The translations under genes were made by a program, and so were the position numbers. This document shows positions 12,885 to 45,175 of a stretch of 46,216 bases of DNA, piece by piece. Every line of letters begins with the position of its first letter. Within the stretch, counting starts at the first letter, position 1. Under the pieces are notes generated by a model. It had not been told where the DNA came from and did no database searches. It saw nothing but the letters and a program-made list of their open reading frames with translations. Source of the DNA: an uncultured Clostridia bacterium (GTDB lineage Bacteria > Bacillota > Clostridia > Oscillospirales > CAG-272); contig CALWJT010000045.1 of assembly GCA_944381075.1 (NCBI GenBank), positions 1-46,216 of the forward strand. The letters are read 5' to 3'.

Positions 12885-12910
12885 AGCGCCGCCATAAAGG
12901 GCGGCGGAAT

Positions 12911-13021
12911 ATCTTTGGGGGTTGGTGAAATTCCACATCGGCGGTAAAGTCCGCGAACGCCGAAACGGCGCCGAGCAGGTGTGATTCCTGCACCGACGGT
13001 ATAGTCCGGATGAGAAAAGAT
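12911..13021 (+). promoter_or_regulatory. FMN riboswitch (RFN element)
   Basis: The conserved core elements are in order: GGTGAAATTCC, ATCGGCGGTAAAGTCCGCGA, a GCCGAAACGGC stem, GTGTGATTCCTGCACCGACG and GGTATAGTCCGGATG. The closing stem ATCTTT/AAAGAT is at 12911-12916 and 13016-13021. It controls the riboflavin transporter gene downstream. I see no clear promoter between the tuf hairpin and this element, so partial readthrough from tuf is possible. Confidence 0.96.
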
Positions 13022-13051
13022 AAAAAATGCACACGGATTTTCCGTGAGATC

Positions 13052-13857: not shown

Positions 13858-13870
13858 TGAAAAAAATAAA

Positions 13871-13955
13871 CTTATCAAGAGCGGCTGAGGGACTGGCCCG
13901 ATGATGCCCGGCAACCTGTCAGAGGATGACAAGGTGCCAATTCCCGACAGATGAG
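13871..13955 (+). promoter_or_regulatory. SAM-I riboswitch (S-box)
   Basis: The S-box core is present: CTTATCAAGAGCGGCTGAGG, GACTGGCCCGATGATGCCCG, GCAACC, AAGGTGCCAATTCC and the closing GATGAG. It is followed by the terminator at 13968-14003. It senses S-adenosylmethionine and represses metK when SAM is plentiful. Confidence 0.97.
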
Positions 13956-13967
13956 TCCGCATATTTT

Positions 13968-34635: not shown

Positions 34636-35229
34636 ATGCTGATGGGTTTGCTCGCTGCATGTTGCGGCGAGGAGGAAAAACGCAAAATCGAATATATTTA
34701 TTTGCATTATGGGAAAACCATTTTCTACATCATTCACAAGAGGGTGGAGAGCCAGTCCGACGCAGAGGATCTGACGCATGATCTTTTTGTAAAGCTTATC
34801 AAGATGTCCGATCGCCTGGACCTTTCCAAACCCGGAAAATTGTATTCGCTTCTGGTGATTTTAGCGAAAAATATGGTCGTTGATTTTATGCGGAAATGCA
34901 GAGAGACGGATTTTGACGATTCCGAGGCCGGCGAGATATACAGCTCCGATGCCATATTGAACAGCCGCTCTCCGGTGGATTTTGTTTTAGGACGCGAGAA
35001 CTATCAGGAACTGCTTTCCTGTATCGGCAAGCTGAAAGAAAGGGACAAGATCATTTTTCAATTGAAATATATACACGGATATGACAATGCCGAAATTGCC
35101 GAATTTTTGGAGCTCCCATCAGCAGAGATAATCAGTGACAGGCTTTATAAGGGAAAGAAAATGCTTATGAAAATGATAGGAGGTGACCGGTACTTTGAAG
35201 ACGGACAAAAGAAGCGAAATGCAATTTGA
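34636..35229 (+). CDS. RNA polymerase sigma-70 family (ECF-like) factor
   Basis: A 197-residue ECF-like sigma factor. Region 2 (YLHYGKTIFYIIHKRVESQS then DAEDLTHDLF) and region 4 (KERDKIIFQLKYIHGYDNAE, then IAEFLELPSAEI) are both visible. ATG 34636 is chosen with GAGG eight bases upstream; GTG 34627 and ATG 34642 are alternatives. The end overlaps the next gene by 35 bases, the usual sigma/anti-sigma coupling. It has its own promoter and structured leader. Confidence 0.88.
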   Translation: MLMGLLAACCGEEEKRKIEYIYLHYGKTIFYIIHKRVESQSDAEDLTHDLFVKLIKMSDRLDLSKPGKLYSLLVILAKNMVVDFMRKCRETDFDDSEAGEIYSSDAILNSRSPVDFVLGRENYQELLSCIGKLKERDKIIFQLKYIHGYDNAEIAEFLELPSAEIISDRLYKGKKMLMKMIGGDRYFEDGQKKRNAI

Positions 35230-35953
35230 GGAGCTTTTGCGGCAGGCGATGCAGGAGGATCATGCAAATGAGCTTGAAAGGATCCCCTCCGAAGAAGAGC
35301 TGGAGGGGAAGGTCGTCTTCTCGAAGCGCCACTAGCGCCGGATGCAGAGGCTGTTTAACGGCGACAGTGCGGTGCTGGAGGGAAGCGCGAGGGGAACTCT
35401 GGGTACGCGCAGACTGATCAAGATCCTGATCGCATCGGCGCTGCTGATCGGCGCGGTCGTTTTAGGTATGATGGTCTACTCCTATTATAATCCGGTATCC
35501 GCCTTCTTTCCGATCATGGAGGATTTGAAGAGCATTTCCGGAGGCGCTCCGATCCGAGACGGCTCGCTGGAGCTTTCCTTCACGGAGAATATCAAAGTGT
35601 TTTCCAGCATCGAAGAGCTGGAAAACGAGCTTCATACCGGCGCGATGTATCCGAGAGCAGGGGAAGACGAGGCGCTCTCAGCCGTGCAGGTGAGATATGC
35701 GGAGTTTCCCGATAAAAAGGTCGCGTTGATTTCTTTGGAGAATGGATGCACCGTGAGTGTATATCTGAAATCGCCCGCCTATTTGACGGAAAACCTTCCG
35801 GCGGAAAATTTTCAAAACATTGCTGGGTGGTCTTGCTGTGTTTTGGATGTAAAAGGCGGCGTTCAGGCAACGATGACGCAGGATGGGATTGTCTATGTGA
35901 TCGTCGCACCGGATCTTGACACGCTGGAGAGAATCGTATCCTCCCTTCAATGA
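35195..35953 (+). pseudogene. Putative anti-sigma factor interrupted by an in-frame TAG
   Basis: A TTG start at 35195 sits eight bases after a perfect AGGAGGTGA inside the sigma gene. The frame encodes a cytoplasmic segment ending FSKRH, then TAG at 35333-35335, and continues in the same frame with RRMQRLF, a transmembrane helix (ILIASALLIGAVVLGMMVYS) and an extracytoplasmic domain to 35953. If TAG were a sense codon the protein would be 252 residues, a normal membrane anti-sigma layout. Reinitiation at ATG 35342 would give a 203-residue membrane fragment lacking the sigma-binding part. TAG is used as a normal stop elsewhere (grpB), so recoding is unlikely. A sequencing error or polymorphism is possible. 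Confidence 0.7.
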
Positions 35954-35994
35954 CTTGATGTTTTTGTAAAAATGAACTGAATAATTGTTTTTTT

Positions 35995-36037
35995 CACCGA
36001 ATTCTGAAATTTTTTCAGAATTCGGTGATTTTTTTTC
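35995..36037 (+). terminator. Intrinsic terminator after the anti-sigma gene
   Basis: CACCGAATTCTGAA / TTCAGAATTCGGTG, a perfect 14-bp stem with a short T-rich loop, followed by ATTTTTTTTC. Confidence 0.93.
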
Positions 36038-36106: not shown

Positions 36107-36216
36107 TAAAAAAACAAACCGCAAAAGCGGTTTGTAAAATGTCCATCGACAGGTTGGAAAACCAACAAGGGAAACTCCCATATTCAACATGGAAAATATA
36201 TAAAAGAAGTTAGGCT
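36107..36216 (-). ncRNA. Putative guide-like ncRNA divergent from the Cas9-derived gene
   Basis: A short minus-strand transcription unit of about 110 nt. A perfect promoter (36251-36223) precedes it. From 5' to 3' it has an AT-rich segment without stable pairing (36216-36180), then hairpins GGGA/TCCC (36179-36169), GTTGG/CCAAC (36166-36153) and TGTC/GACA (36151-36140). It ends with a 9-bp perfect terminator stem ACAAACCGC/GCGGTTTGT (36135-36114) plus T6. The order of unpaired 5' end, hairpins and terminator is that of a single-guide RNA for Cas9. No repeat:antirepeat duplex of the usual length is visible, so the identification rests on architecture and location. Confidence 0.6.
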
Positions 36217-36222
36217 GGTAAT

Positions 36223-36251
36223 AGTATATAACATAATTTGAAAGATGTCAA
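36223..36251 (-). promoter_or_regulatory. Consensus promoter of the guide-like ncRNA
   Basis: On the minus strand, TTGACA (36251-36246), a 17-base spacer and TATACT (36228-36223). It lies directly against the ribosome-binding site of the divergent Cas9-derived gene (AGAAGGG, 36252-36258). I see no equally good plus-strand promoter; CATAAT at 36232-36237 with TTAGGC at 36210-36215 is a weak candidate. Confidence 0.85.
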
Positions 36252-36266: not shown

Positions 36267-38066
36267 ATGTCGAATTATTTGATAGGTCTTTTTATCGGTT
36301 TGCATGAGGTCGGATATTCTGTGTGCGACGAGGGCGGAAGGCTGCTGCGGTTCAAGGGAGAAAACATGTGGGGCGTTTCCAGAATACGCTCTGCGCTGAC
36401 GGGAGAGGAATCTGCGTTTCAGACGGACTGGATCCGGCCTTTGCAGGCGTATTTTTCTCCTGCGGTCATGGGTTCCGATCCGGCGTTTTTTGAGCGTGTC
36501 CAGCAGGGCGGCTATGACAAAAGAAACGCTTGGCCTTTGCTGTCCGGCTCGGCCTCTAAGATAAAAGAATGGAAAAAGCAATATCCTACCGTGTATCATT
36601 TGCGGGAAAGGCTGGCGCATGAGAAAAACGGAGAGGATGCAAGGCTTGTATACCTTGCGCTGCATCATATCCTCAAGCGCGGCGGCTCTCCCGGCCAAGG
36701 AATTCGCACTTATGAAAAACATAAGGAAGATCTTGCTTTTTTAAAGAAAGTTTATCGAAAGTATGCACCGAAGCGATATTCGCCGATGTTTCATCATGCC
36801 AATCCGTGCGCCAATTATGTTGGATACAGAGCCATGCCGCCGGTGTGTACGAAGCAGGCGTTTTATGACCGGATCCGCGCGGAGCTTGCCGGACCGCGCC
36901 GGTTTGCGCCGGAGCTTCTGCGATGCTTCTCAGAAATCGAGAACGCGACTTTCCTGCCGCGTGCCGGGGACTTTTCTTCCTATGAACCGCCGGCGGCATG
37001 GGAGGTATCGCAGATCCTTGAAAATCAGGGCCGGACAAATCCCTTTTTCAGACGGGAGCGGCGGGATATCGAATCCTTGTGCGGCGGCCGGCGCATGAAT
37101 TGGATTTCAGAGCGGCGGAAGGAGGCGCGCGACTGTGTACGCGGAATGGTCAAAGAGATCGTAAAAATACAGGGCGCAGAACCGAAGCGCATTTTTATCG
37201 CTTATCATGCCGAATATGAAGAAAAAACGGCGGCGGCTGTTTCGCCGTTTCCCGTGAACGAAATCTGCCGGTGTCCGATATTTCTTGTCGGTACGGATTT
37301 TTTGGAAAAAGCCAAAGCGATATTCGGTCTGACGGACAGCCGGGCGGTCAATGACTATTTTTTTGCTCAGAACGCTTTTGCCGTTTCGATGCTCGGCGAT
37401 TGTGTGGTTTCCGATATGGCAGGAACCAAGCCTCGTGGAGGGATGCAGCCGCTGGGGAGGGAAAAATGTGCGGTCCCAGATCCCGCGGTGATTCTGCGTC
37501 ATCCTGAACTGGCAGAGAAAATCAGGCGTACCTTTGCTTATAAGAGCTTTTTTGAGTCGGGGCTCCCGCAGACGTCCCTGCGATATGAGCAAGGGATGCG
37601 GGCACGGCATGCCGGCGCAGATGTATGGGAAAAGGAAAACGGCAGATTGGAGAGGATCCTTTATGATGGAACGGAATATGGCGTGTTGGCGTCTGGAGAA
37701 CTGGTTTGTCTTACGCAGATCATGCTGCCGGCACGTTTGATAGATTTGTTAAATCTGGTCCTTGAAAAGAAAGAAATCCCCACAGAGGCGGAGCTTGTCG
37801 CTTTATACGAAGAGCTGCTGGACAAAGCGGAAAGATTCATCCCGTTTTACAAGCATACCAAAGCTTTTTCGGATGCTTTGCGGACATGGTTTTCCGCTTT
37901 GCCTGCTGAGGATAAACGAAGGTCGATCATTTCTCTGCTTCAGGGAGTGCAGGCGGGACGACCGTGCGGCATTTTTATCGAACATCTGCCTTTGGACCGT
38001 GTGATGCGTATCGATCGCTCCATTACGGGGATGTTTGAACAAAAAAGAAAGCTGGCGTCTACATAG
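36267..38066 (+). CDS. Cas9-derived protein, HNH-less and RuvC-inactivated
   Basis: An intact 599-residue ORF with AGAAGGG eight bases before its ATG. It aligns by eye with Cas9 from end to end. RuvC-I reads YLIGLFIGLHEVGYSV (F9 where Cas9 has Asp10). A typical FKGENMWGV follows, then a shortened bridge helix with few arginines. REC-like parts are KKQYPTVYHLRERL, LVYLALHHILK and YEKHKEDLAFLKKVYRKY. RuvC-II reads PKRIFIAYHAE (A312 for Glu762). The HNH domain is absent. RuvC-III reads NDYFFAQNAF (F366 and N369 for His983 and Asp986). The C-terminus keeps a WED/PI-like region ending RSITGMFEQKRKL. It should not cut DNA; RNA-guided binding is possible. GC content matches the host, and no cas1, cas2 or array is nearby. 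Confidence 0.88.
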   Translation: MSNYLIGLFIGLHEVGYSVCDEGGRLLRFKGENMWGVSRIRSALTGEESAFQTDWIRPLQAYFSPAVMGSDPAFFERVQQGGYDKRNAWPLLSGSASKIKEWKKQYPTVYHLRERLAHEKNGEDARLVYLALHHILKRGGSPGQGIRTYEKHKEDLAFLKKVYRKYAPKRYSPMFHHANPCANYVGYRAMPPVCTKQAFYDRIRAELAGPRRFAPELLRCFSEIENATFLPRAGDFSSYEPPAAWEVSQILENQGRTNPFFRRERRDIESLCGGRRMNWISERRKEARDCVRGMVKEIVKIQGAEPKRIFIAYHAEYEEKTAAAVSPFPVNEICRCPIFLVGTDFLEKAKAIFGLTDSRAVNDYFFAQNAFAVSMLGDCVVSDMAGTKPRGGMQPLGREKCAVPDPAVILRHPELAEKIRRTFAYKSFFESGLPQTSLRYEQGMRARHAGADVWEKENGRLERILYDGTEYGVLASGELVCLTQIMLPARLIDLLNLVLEKKEIPTEAELVALYEELLDKAERFIPFYKHTKAFSDALRTWFSALPAEDKRRSIISLLQGVQAGRPCGIFIEHLPLDRVMRIDRSITGMFEQKRKLAST

Positions 38067-41383: not shown

Positions 41384-42323
41384 GGCTCTTTTATTCCTTG
41401 CCGGCTATGATGCGGGTGAAAACGCGCCATCTCCCTTTTGGCTATATGTGGCGTCGGGGAAAAAACAGGCAGGGGACAGATATATAAAATATAGTTTTTG
41501 TATCTGTTTTTGTGGGATTCTGTATCCTATTATAAACCATTGGTTTTGCGAAAAAACGCGAATCCTGTCGAATAAGCTAAATCGATCACATGCAAAATTA
41601 TGGTTTGCTCTCTGATTGAGGAAGACATTTCTATGTCGGTCCAATGTGCGAGGCCAAAGGGTTTGCTGGAAACTGTGATGACAGCCGCCGAGAATGAAAT
41701 GGCAGAGCCATCCAGTATATTTTGACTGGTTAAATTTATATTGGTATGTTTGTATGGGGAAAAGGAGAATATTGTGAGCCCTTGGCAGGTATGGATACCT
41801 TTAACGCTAACGCTATTCAGAAGCCATTTTAATCAAAAGTATTTGAACTGTTGCCGTCTAATGGACGATTGACTTCCGATTCTTAAATAATGATAAATAA
41901 AATTCAATGAATTCCCATATTTACGTAATTTTTCAAAATATACATTTTGATGTCTAAAAAGTCATTGAAAAAATATCACGAATTATGTATAATATTCGTG
42001 ACATATGATGGGAGATGCTTCTTTGGGTAGTAGATAGATGGAACAAATACACACATAGGCGCTATCGATGTAAAAATAAAACCTATTTTCTTTATTTTAT
42101 GGATAATAACATCATGTAGAAGCAATGCTCTGCGCGTAAGGGAGTTATCTAATCCAAGTTCTGTAATTTAGTTCCATATTGGCAACGGGCCATAGAGAAC
42201 GTATGAATGAAATCCAATTGGGCTTGCGTTTCAGCTGGAATGAATAAGCGTTTCATTTGGCAATATCTTAGCTAGGGAAAATATAGTTTGAATTTGAGTA
42301 AAGGAAATAAAAGGAGGATGCTT
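41384..42323. other. AT-rich intergenic region at the island edge
   Basis: About 940 bases of low GC with no convincing gene. The longest open frame (41355-41615, plus) has no ribosome-binding site and an unlikely composition. A 34-codon frame at 42015-42119 is also unconvincing. It contains a consensus promoter with an inverted repeat at 41965-42001. The composition change suggests an acquired segment begins here. Confidence 0.55.
41965..42001 (+). promoter_or_regulatory. Promoter with overlapping operator-like inverted repeat
   Basis: TTGAAA at 41965-41970, a 17-base spacer and TATAAT at 41988-41993. An inverted repeat TCACGAAT (41976-41983) / ATTCGTGA (41994-42001) brackets the -10 box, the usual place for a repressor site. 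It would drive the restriction-modification pair after a leader of about 320 bases. Confidence 0.6.
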
Positions 42324-44315
42324 ATGAATAACGAACGACGGCTGATGGTAAATATATTGAGCCTTACCTCTGGTATAGATCCGGACATACTAAAATGTCT
42401 GTTATTGATTCGGTATATCGCAGCATCAGATGAGGAGCGGTGTTCGAGCAAAGCGATAAAATGCAATAACGGAGAAACGATGTGGAACATGATAGTGCAA
42501 GAGGCACACAAGACGGATGGACACATTCTTTCTGCAATAAGATTTGCCATCGATCAAATACAATCCGATTTGTTGTTTGCCGAAAAGATGGCTAAACGTT
42601 TGTGCACGGTTGCAGTAGATGAGTATACACTGAAAGACATCATACATCTGCTCTCAAATATGCCAGCAGATTACGACACCCTGTCTGCTATTTTCGAGTA
42701 TCATCTGGCTCGGGAAGTGCGGACCGGTTCGCCCAGCTCCGGTGATTTTTATACACCTAAACAAGTTGTTCAGTTCATGACAGAGCTGCTGGAAATTGAA
42801 CATGATGGAAAAGTATACGATCCTTGTTGTGGGAGCGGTGCAATGCTGTGCGGCGCAGCCCTTGCTCATCCCGACAAAAAACTACTGTTATATGGACAAA
42901 CACTCGATTGGGAAGCTTTTTTGAATTGTCAAATGAACCTTATGCTGCATGGTCTTTCTGCGGATTTAGGGAGAGATCCAGCCAATACACTTCTGAAGGA
43001 TATTCATACAGAACAATGCTTTGATTATATTCTCACAAATCCGCCGTTTAACTCTTCCGATTGGTGCAAAAACGATAATGTGGACGGGAATGTGCATTGG
43101 CGGTATGGATGTCCTCCGCAAAAAAACGCTAATTATGCGTGGCTCCAGCACATCATTGGTCACTTGTCCCCCAATGGACGCGCGGTTATACTGTTGCCGA
43201 ATGGAACGTTAACAACTCAGAATCTTACAGAAAGCAAGATCCGGAAGCAAATTCTTCTTGATGGACGGATTGAAGCGATCCTTGCACTTCCGGCTGGCCT
43301 TTTTTACGGGACAAAGATTCCCTGCTGTGCATGGATTATACGCGGTGCCTGCGCACACAAAACGGTTCTTTTTGTTGATGCAAGGCAGCGAAATCTTCTT
43401 GGGCAGCAGGACGGCAAAAAAATTTCTGACCTTTTATGCCAATACCGGCATGGCAAGCGACTTGAAGCAACAGAATGGTATGCCGCTGCATCCATAGAGG
43501 AAATTGCTCAAAAAAATTATGTTTTGAGTCCCAATTTTTACACACTACAAAGAAAAATCTCGTTACCTTCATTTGAGCAAATATCAGAAGAATTCAATAC
43601 ATCGATAGATAGATTGTGCAGCCGAATTCCGGCATCTCCGCTCTGTGAGAGCATCAAAAATTGGAAAACAAAAAACCTCCCTGAAGATTGGAGCGAAGTG
43701 TATTTATCCGAGTTATATAATATTTTTGGAGGTGTATGCGCGAATAAAGATGCCTTGGGGAGGGGCACTCCTATGGTCGACGTAAAAACTGTTATTCACC
43801 ATGTATTCCTGCCGGACGCTCTTCCTGCCTGCGTTGAGCTGCCGGCTGGAGATGCTCCTAAATATTACATCAAACGCGGAGATGTATTGTTGAATCGAAC
43901 CAGCGAGACCATAGATGAGTTGGCCTGCTGTAGTATAGCGTTAGAAGACCGAGCTGCAGTATATGGAGCTTATCTAAAACGTTTACGACCAAGACAAGAC
44001 GATCAGGTCGATCCTCGATATATGGCGGCATACTTTCGCAGCAAGATATATCGGAAAGAAATTGAGCGAGTTTCTTTTGTTTATACAACGCGGGCGAATA
44101 TCAACCTTCATCAACTTTCGATGATACGTTTATATTATCCTGATATAAGGTGGCAGCATGCAATTGGAAAAACGCTGTTTTCTGTAATCCATTTGAATCA
44201 AGAACACCCGGATATGAAATTAGAGGGATTAATAAATCATTTTATCGAGACTTTTATTGAGAAGTTTATTACATATCCTGTTTTAATTTTCCAGGAGGGG
44301 AGTGACAAAGGATGA
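42324..44315 (+). CDS. Type I-like DNA methyltransferase fused to a specificity domain (HsdM-HsdS)
   Basis: A 663-residue protein. The start is ATG 42324, six bases after AAGGAGG; ATG 42318 overlaps that site. The N-terminal part is helical. It is followed by an HsdM-type N6-adenine methyltransferase: SGDFYTPKQVVQFM, motif I YDPCCGSGAML (about residues 165-175) and motif IV NPPF (about 239-242). From about residue 440 a single target-recognition half-domain follows (VYLSELYNIFGGV, then YYIKRGDVLLNRTSE, then NLHQLSMIRLYYPDI), like half of an HsdS. It overlaps the HNH gene by four bases (ATGA). No HsdR motor is present. GC is well below the host genes. Confidence 0.87.
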   Translation: MNNERRLMVNILSLTSGIDPDILKCLLLIRYIAASDEERCSSKAIKCNNGETMWNMIVQEAHKTDGHILSAIRFAIDQIQSDLLFAEKMAKRLCTVAVDEYTLKDIIHLLSNMPADYDTLSAIFEYHLAREVRTGSPSSGDFYTPKQVVQFMTELLEIEHDGKVYDPCCGSGAMLCGAALAHPDKKLLLYGQTLDWEAFLNCQMNLMLHGLSADLGRDPANTLLKDIHTEQCFDYILTNPPFNSSDWCKNDNVDGNVHWRYGCPPQKNANYAWLQHIIGHLSPNGRAVILLPNGTLTTQNLTESKIRKQILLDGRIEAILALPAGLFYGTKIPCCAWIIRGACAHKTVLFVDARQRNLLGQQDGKKISDLLCQYRHGKRLEATEWYAAASIEEIAQKNYVLSPNFYTLQRKISLPSFEQISEEFNTSIDRLCSRIPASPLCESIKNWKTKNLPEDWSEVYLSELYNIFGGVCANKDALGRGTPMVDVKTVIHHVFLPDALPACVELPAGDAPKYYIKRGDVLLNRTSETIDELACCSIALEDRAAVYGAYLKRLRPRQDDQVDPRYMAAYFRSKIYRKEIERVSFVYTTRANINLHQLSMIRLYYPDIRWQHAIGKTLFSVIHLNQEHPDMKLEGLINHFIETFIEKFITYPVLIFQEGSDKG

Positions 44316-45175
44316 CGCAATCGGAACAAATGAAATTGGTTCTCCTTTATGCTATGAATGAAATAGGCGGCGGTGGAAAGCGGCATACGGTGTTGCAGTA
44401 TATTAATGACAATAGATATTGGTATAAAAATGATACAAATGATATATTGGGTACAACACGTCCATCTGAGTTAAAATGGCGAAATAATTTTTCATATGAG
44501 CGGCAGCATTTGGTCACTGCAGGATATATGAAAGCGGGGGGAGATGGCAATTGGATTATTACGGAGAAAGGGAAGGAATATCTGAACAAACTGATAGAGC
44601 GAGCCAGAAATATGCCGTCGGGGGAAGACCATTTGTTTACCCTGGAATTCTATCAAAAACTTTTTTCTACCACAGATAGCATAATCCCCAACGAAGAGGA
44701 TGAAGAAGCGCATTATATTGCGCAGATAGCGGCAGAAGATATGGACTCTGCATCTGTGCTGGATACTTTTTCGAACGAACCCGAGAGAAAACGCGCTTCT
44801 CGTATTTCAGGAAACCGCATTGTCTATCCGCGCGATCCATCTGTGGCTATGCGCGCACTTGGCCGGGCAAACCATTTGTGTGAAGTAGATTCTTCTCATA
44901 TATCATTTCTACGCAGAAATGGGCATGTGTTGTATATGGAGCCTCATCATTTAATTCCGGTATCTTTTACTGACTATTTTGGAGTAAATTTAGATCGAGA
45001 GCAAAATATTTTTTCACTCTGTAGCAATTGTCATAATCAAATTCATTATGGGAGAAAGGAGGATATAAGAAATTTAATCGCAAAACTGTTTTTTTCAAGA
45101 GCGCAAGAGATATGTTCGATACTGGGCAGAGAGATCAGCATTGAAGATATGTATCGCATTTATGGCGTTTTGTAA
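44312..45175 (+). CDS. Winged-helix/HNH restriction endonuclease
   Basis: A 287-residue protein, translationally coupled to the methyltransferase (ATG overlaps its TGA). The N-terminal about 100 residues look like an Mrr_N-type winged helix (LLYAMNEIGGGGKRHTVLQY, then GNWIITEKGKEYLNKL). The C-terminal part is an HNH nuclease: Cys190, MEPHHLIPVSF (about 209-219) and CSNCHNQIHYG (237-247), with the two CxxC-like cysteine pairs and the catalytic histidines present. It is most likely the cutting partner of the HsdM-HsdS-like protein, giving a two-gene restriction-modification system. Gene content and overlap support the pairing; cleavage specificity is unknown. Confidence 0.86.
   Translation: MTQSEQMKLVLLYAMNEIGGGGKRHTVLQYINDNRYWYKNDTNDILGTTRPSELKWRNNFSYERQHLVTAGYMKAGGDGNWIITEKGKEYLNKLIERARNMPSGEDHLFTLEFYQKLFSTTDSIIPNEEDEEAHYIAQIAAEDMDSASVLDTFSNEPERKRASRISGNRIVYPRDPSVAMRALGRANHLCEVDSSHISFLRRNGHVLYMEPHHLIPVSFTDYFGVNLDREQNIFSLCSNCHNQIHYGRKEDIRNLIAKLFFSRAQEICSILGREISIEDMYRIYGVL

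Follow-up and report, generated by a model that had tools for sequence, protein, structure and literature searches.

Nuclease-dead descendants of TnpB are already known as natural RNA-guided regulators, and here a locus is described in which Cas9 itself may have been exapted. The window, meaning the whole stretch of DNA that was analysed (46,216 nucleotides, contig CALWJT010000045.1 of assembly GCA_944381075.1, from an uncultured Clostridia bacterium of the Oscillospirales, CAG-272), harbours a plus-strand gene at 36267-38066 for a miniature Cas9 homologue of 599 residues that is predicted to be nuclease-dead, and beside it on the opposite strand a locus resembling a trans-activating CRISPR RNA (tracrRNA). 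With slightly less than even confidence, we read the two as a domesticated type II-A effector, in which a dead mini-Cas9 and an altered, divergent tracrRNA would form a ribonucleoprotein regulator independent of CRISPR RNA (crRNA). If functional, Cas9 would have been exapted by an unexpected route, the shedding of DNA contact and not of cleavage alone. The locus offers a minimal Cas9 scaffold for testing, made up of REC1, the RuvC core and the C-terminal domain, and raises the question of what a tracrRNA can do without a crRNA. A search of open-licence PubMed Central full text with fixed phrases found no report of a natural dead, domesticated Cas9, although other wording or subscription journals could hold one.

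The closest Cas9 in our tree was that of the Clostridiales bacterium isolate AS23ysBPME_277 (L088), a type II-A-like Clostridia Cas9 (support 0.77, as printed after rooting). The window gene shares with L088 and type II-A Cas9 the RuvC-I, REC1, RuvC-II, RuvC-III and C-terminal segments in the same order, a tracrRNA-like locus divergent from the gene and promoter DNA like that of L088. It differs from L088 in length (599 versus 1337 residues), in the absence of HNH, REC2, REC3, WED, a part of the strand region for the protospacer-adjacent motif (PAM) and the bridge-helix arginines, and in its replaced active site. Unlike in type II-A systems, no family-type repeat was found in its own genome.

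The likeness to TldR is one of analogy only, in that the RuvC active site was lost within an RNA-guided nuclease family and the gene was kept intact. TldR derives from TnpB, and its binding of guide RNA and DNA has not been lost as far as is apparent (PMC13418256). In the window protein, unlike TldR, the DNA-holding parts are missing, no target was found, and no orthologue was found in the genomes searched. IsrB, an HNH-less homologue of IscB and Cas9, is likewise a RuvC protein without HNH (PMC8730458). The 599-residue protein differs from IsrB, a member of the IscB line, by keeping a II-A-type REC1 and C-terminal domain and by its replaced active site, and among protein families it matched Cas9 models best.

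In Streptococcus pyogenes, a form of the tracrRNA, tracr-L, takes part with Cas9 in autorepression, and the nexus pocket of SpCas9 that holds the tracrRNA contains I473, R78 and Y81 (PMC11417352). Cas9 is there full-length and active and is directed by the RNA to the cas promoter, whereas the present locus yielded no guide match and its protein has a changed nexus pocket. The scaRNA of Francisella novicida is another small RNA which together with Cas9 regulates genes (PMC8730458, PMC12231574). Unlike the window protein, FnCas9 keeps cleavage and works with tracrRNA and scaRNA.

The miniature Cas9 homologue and its losses

The following features of the gene are used below.

36267-38066, plus strand: HNH-less miniature Cas9 homologue of 599 residues, RuvC active site replaced (open reading frame; profile, sequence and alignment searches)
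36291-36293, plus strand: codon of F9, which replaces the RuvC-I catalytic aspartate (GLDIGT in relatives, GLFIGL here; alignment)
36399-36431, plus strand: site of the bridge-helix deletion, with a 10-residue gap, the arginine block gone, and F51 and W55 in place of conserved arginines (alignment)
36453-36686, plus strand: first half of REC1, residues 63-140, including YPTVYHLRERL and LVYLALHHILK (alignment, model segments)
36702-37061, plus strand: second half of REC1, residues 146-265 (Pfam, model segments, alignment)
37146-37214, plus strand: RuvC-II segment, residues 294-316; the A312 codon at 37200-37202 replaces the catalytic glutamate (alignment)
37314-37394, plus strand: RuvC-III segment, residues 350-376; F365, F366 and N369 replace the conserved histidine, histidine and aspartate (alignment)
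37644-38063, plus strand: C-terminal domain, residues 460-599, with the SITGMFEQ motif (Pfam, BLAST, alignment, structure model)

Judged by sequence homology, the gene is a type II-A-like Cas9 derivative. Its 599 codons contain neither stops nor frame shifts, and in this the initial annotation, made from the DNA letters, was right; the ribosome-binding site that it had called good is only a modest AGGG, 7 nt 5' of the ATG. The profile searches it had suggested returned Cas9 models as the best family matches: Pfam Cas9_REC (9.4e-12) and Cas9_PI (1.4e-5, residues 466-565, at 25.5 bits narrowly over the cut-off of 25) and PADLOC Cas9 (2.8e-32). Solved Cas9 sequences were matched at 3.7e-16. The NCBI equivalog model TIGR01865 gave 52 bits against a cut-off of 100, and by that standard the protein is therefore not a normal Cas9.

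The colinearity with Cas9 proposed earlier, including the RuvC motifs and the C-terminal part, was recovered with a model of 14 full-length Cas9s from the same family. Residues 3-140 matched model positions 12-162 (81.8 bits), residues 146-264 positions 326-459 (33.4 bits), residues 294-316 positions 764-786 (9.7 bits), residues 351-372 positions 987-1008 (0.7 bits) and residues 577-595 positions 1340-1358 (0.5 bits). The last two segments are weak when taken alone and are borne out by the Pfam PI match, by the BLAST matches of residues 460-596 to L088, L090 and L122 and by a further alignment. In Foldseek searches of the Protein Data Bank, the 50 matches listed were Cas9 structures or Cas9 complexes, both for the full-length model (best E 3.4e-9) and for the C-terminal half (best E 1.4e-4). 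The full-length model is reliable for about the first 140 residues only. The C-terminal half was modelled separately (residues 324-599) and reached a predicted local distance difference test score (pLDDT) of 67 and a query TM-score of 0.54 with a large root-mean-square deviation.

For the alignment, 14 full-length Cas9s of the own family were combined with 64 frames of >1290 residues from relatives, including one viral contig and one phage record; cut or short Cas9 frames were excluded and near-duplicates retained. Domain names and the PAM-reading strand are assigned by reference to the SpCas9 structure. The segments kept are RuvC-I (residues 3-40), the REC1 halves (63-140 and 146-265), RuvC-II (294-316), RuvC-III (350-376) and the C-terminal domain (460-599). 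About 5 residues join the REC1 halves where L088 has a REC2 of about 154, so that some 150 residues are missing; relative to L088, about 270 residues of REC3 and linker are missing between REC1 and RuvC-II; and 19 residues separate RuvC-II from RuvC-III where L088 has about 174, a deficit of about 155. The comparison with L088 further shows a loss of about 90 residues ahead of the C-terminal domain, the greater part of the WED region, and one of about 20 residues inside that domain, in the PAM-strand region. The clean removal of HNH described in the initial annotation was thus found again, within losses that are considerably wider.

All five RuvC active-site columns are replaced (F9, A312, F365, F366 and N369). 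Four of these replacements had been named before and each was confirmed by the alignment, which added F365, standing for a further conserved histidine beside the catalytic one. The bridge helix, reported as about ten residues shorter, has indeed a 10-residue gap, but its arginine block is gone and not just shortened.

Decay or maintenance of the gene

The most serious rival explanation is that the locus is a late-stage remnant, a decaying and functionless cas9 whose frame is open by chance next to a residual tracrRNA locus. We consider this unlikely. The gene is an orphan for which no orthologue was found and has lost most functional domains, its codon score is low (0.087), cas9 is commonly broken in the relatives examined, and the adjoining anti-sigma frame has an in-frame TAG, all of which would fit a remnant. 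On the other side, no stop is present despite extreme divergence and several large deletions, every one of which left the frame open. In a tree of 79 sequences the 599-residue protein had the longest terminal branch (1.65; next 0.98, median 0.36). A neutral simulation, which is a simple model, was run to 32% changed residues and gave a mean of 10.5 stops and no open frame in 200 runs, compared with 0 stops in the real gene. For codon use, a weak measure here, every one of the six 100-codon windows scored positive in the coding frame, and the five remaining frames scored negative.

The distribution of the changes also argues against ordinary decay. Of 28 columns conserved at >=98% among the 78 full-length Cas9s, 19 are kept in the 599-residue protein and 9 are lost; the lost columns include all 5 of the RuvC active site (hypergeometric P 0.0013 if losses were random) and 2 bridge-helix arginines, and the losses are thereby concentrated on active-site and bridge-helix columns. 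Another 33 columns show 90-98% conservation, and the protein keeps 20 of them. For columns conserved at >=90%, this amounts to 39/61, while other Cas9s keep 96.6% on average and 83.9% at minimum.

The reverse pattern is seen in three broken cas9 genes from the family or the order. In L035 one stop and one frame change interrupt the gene, in L185 a stop together with frame changes, and in L036 the gene ends at about 315 residues; all three retain the RuvC-I aspartate and the arginine-rich helix. In L093, L124, L131 and L160 the cas9 gene is split by a frame change with the later domains still there, and the frames of L098 and L140 stop short; L157 and L035 are one record. The RuvC-I aspartate is present in all short cas9 frames that are not cut by a contig end (L093, L098, L124, L131, L140, L157, L160), and no dead mini-Cas9 was found among them. 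Assembly errors could lie behind some of the broken or shortened frames among the relatives. The broken cas9 at L185:3705-5666 (minus strand), from another family of the order, has a well-kept tracrRNA adjoining (63.9 bits).

The loss pattern suggests that the window gene has been kept as a coding gene. From this pattern we infer selection, and to that extent the earlier view of an intact gene maintained for a non-cleaving role stands; the specific role then assigned to it, that of an RNA-guided repressor, is not supported, as discussed below.

A candidate RNA locus divergent from the gene

A tracrRNA-like locus, which the initial annotation did not include, lies on the minus strand beside the cas9 derivative. 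It consists of the following features.

36223-36251, minus strand: promoter-like TTGACA-17-TATACT at a distance of 15 nt from the start codon, in the position that tracrRNA promoters have in relatives (motif scan)
36110-36216, minus strand: predicted tracrRNA-derived non-coding RNA of about 107 nt, its start predicted from the promoter only (fold, tracrRNA model)
36114-36135, minus strand: intrinsic-terminator-like hairpin of 9 pairs, which ends the RNA candidate (terminator scan)

Within the family, 22 of 395 genomes matched, and 20 loci besides that of the own genome were fetched, some of them cut by contig ends. All 20 fetched loci carried a tracrRNA motif next to the start of cas9 and opposite to it in strand. 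In genome G166, a weak Cas9 match had a TGA inside and the stretch fetched there gave no Cas9 match. The tracrRNA structure of 14 family loci has covariation support (13/20 pairs changed on both sides), and a model made from these 14 tracrRNAs found the tracrRNA beside cas9 in each of 17 further loci, 6 of which came from the 20 family loci, with 26-88 bits.

At the window locus the promoter-like element (36251-36223, minus strand) agrees with the consensus in 11/12 positions. The predicted RNA folds into a 5' single strand, a stem, two hairpins and a terminator hairpin, with an alternative fold that has a nexus-like hairpin; its fold z-scores are -4.7 and -5.0, and the hairpin spacing is much like that of L041 and L037. 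The arrangement of promoter and terminator occurred in 2 of 920 window tiles, both at the RNA candidate, and in none of 2000 mononucleotide shuffles, by a strict rule of which even a somewhat looser version is passed by only 8 of the 20 family loci. The best match of the tracrRNA model in the window was likewise at the RNA candidate (17.8 bits, next 8.5), with an E of 0.17 for the window and 0.0015 for a 401-base stretch. This score is not significant genome-wide, and the homology of the RNA therefore rests on place, strand and register. The promoter stretch aligned with that of L088 better than 499/500 shuffles. The anti-repeat of the RNA candidate is diverged, and comparison with the relatives suggests that the 5' part is such a diverged anti-repeat rather than a guide.

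Possible roles and genomic surroundings

In SpCas9, REC1 binds the repeat:anti-repeat duplex. A crRNA-free ribonucleoprotein is favoured here because the parts that were lost hold or read DNA, and those kept are REC1, the RuvC core and the C-terminal domain. The mini-Cas9 would have been retained along with its tracrRNA, which is divergently placed and has changed strongly. The protein has most likely kept its ability to bind the RNA derived from this tracrRNA, if that RNA is transcribed as predicted, and formation of an R-loop has probably been lost. The ribonucleoprotein may then act as a crRNA-independent regulator, possibly starting with its own expression, given that the promoter of the RNA is situated in the cas9 leader. 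That Cas9 was domesticated into a ribonucleoprotein which is both crRNA-free and independent of DNA, built from REC1, the RuvC core, the C-terminal domain and a tracrRNA-derived RNA after the DNA-holding parts were shed, is offered as a tentative proposal.

Several results weigh against a domesticated ribonucleoprotein. The nexus pocket is presumably not kept, as in our alignment to SpCas9 W55 and P58 take the places of R78 and Y81, and a deletion covers the stretch around I473. The codon score is lower than those of all 15 other genes scored outside restriction-modification (0.159-0.546); it does not discriminate by itself, because the reverse frames of three of the 15 genes reach 0.094-0.112. 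The Foldseek matches of the full-length model had a TM-score of only 0.15, so that of the structural comparison suggested in the initial annotation the resemblance to Cas9 was obtained and the full-length superposition was poor. The tracrRNA model gave 18.0 and 14.5 bits in 79 kb of other sequence, and similarity of the promoter beyond shuffles was seen in only L088 of six relatives tested. No orthologue was found when genomes were drawn three times with overlap (395 and 394 from the family, 394 from the order), nor, among the matches listed, in the genus, public genome contigs (the best 80 of 228 relatives), viral contigs, plasmids or phages. A full-length Cas9 was present in one of the 6 other genus members. 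An unannotated record labelled Bacteriophage sp. (L170, MT835488.1 52274-64392) was seen to contain a Cas9 frame of about 1370 residues.

The role assigned in the initial annotation, an RNA-guided DNA repressor, can be extended to the RNA locus: the tracrRNA-derived RNA would be a natural single guide, with a 5' guide of 17-21 nt and a fused stem, and would block transcription. We regard this as distinctly unlikely. The lost RuvC active site agrees with it, as does the RNA, which can be folded as a 5' strand, stem, nexus, two hairpins and terminator at -28.7 kcal/mol against a best of -29.5; no family-type repeat occurred at <=3 mismatches in the own genome (2.0 Mb, 47 contigs, 93.6% complete; one 20-base pattern searched); and tracr-L and scaRNA are precedents of repression by Cas9 (PMC11417352, PMC8730458, PMC12231574). 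What disfavours it is that the parts by which Cas9 holds DNA have been lost (bridge helix, REC2, REC3, WED region, part of the PAM-strand region), and that the 5' part of the RNA looks like a diverged anti-repeat rather than a guide. Nor did the 17-nt 5' end of the RNA candidate have any other match at <=2 mismatches in the own genome, where the reversed control pattern had 3; the search covers a 17-nt guide from the predicted RNA start. Nor was any orthologue found that could show conserved targets. The best longer partial match (20/22, E 0.11), on contig C32 (L055) and by our reading within the first codons of an opposite-strand gene, was not convincing as a guide target and counts as a lead at most, A+T-rich stretches matching by chance. 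At the end of the same contig, a stretch at L055:1560-1855 is present twice, beside that weak match.

Very unlikely, finally, is a new role of the protein alone, with the minus-strand RNA incidental or a cis-acting antisense to the cas9 leader: the RNA locus would be antisense to any leader starting upstream of it, the nexus pocket is changed and the protein has a net charge of +16 with REC1b as its most basic part, but hairpins and terminator still follow each other at the RNA locus as in a tracrRNA.

BLAST found no second copy of the RNA region in the own genome, and no other Cas9 was found there. A weak match to the Cas9 family model (17 bits) was seen on another contig of this genome, at G000:C22:8355-8546 (L032). 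The only Cas1 found in the genome belongs to a type I-C locus (L085, G000:C47:8000-19138) with cas3, cas5c, cas8c, cas7, cas4, cas1, cas2 and a 19-repeat array.

Near the cas9 derivative lie spoVT and the genes for an extracytoplasmic function (ECF) sigma factor and an anti-sigma-like protein, the latter with no match in Pfam. One further feature lies in between.

35994-36028, plus strand: intrinsic-terminator-like hairpin of 16 pairs, lying after the sigma/anti-sigma genes and before the cas9 derivative (terminator scan)

RNA-guided activation is known from Cas12f with sigma factors, although a literature search made here returned nothing on it. A link of the cas9 derivative with the adjoining ECF sigma factor was considered and not adopted, because this hairpin and the anti-sigma-like gene intervene. 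The anti-sigma-like frame (35195-35953, plus strand) has its in-frame TAG at 35333, and the part of the protein after the TAG had no match in 6 other genus genomes. Synteny around spoVT was compared in five genus members (L080-L084), which had spoVT in common with the window and otherwise one weak leucine-rich-repeat match in L082; in L080, about 100 bases just upstream of spoVT were also common with the window (70%, E 1.1e-6). No empty site for the cas9 derivative could be demonstrated by this synteny. Elsewhere in the window, a gene for an N6 DNA methylase with a type I specificity domain is followed by one for an Mrr-N/HNH protein (42288-45175, plus strand), both negative for the codon use of the window, and flavin mononucleotide (FMN) and S-adenosylmethionine (SAM) riboswitches are located at 12907-13025 and 13869-13957 (plus strand).
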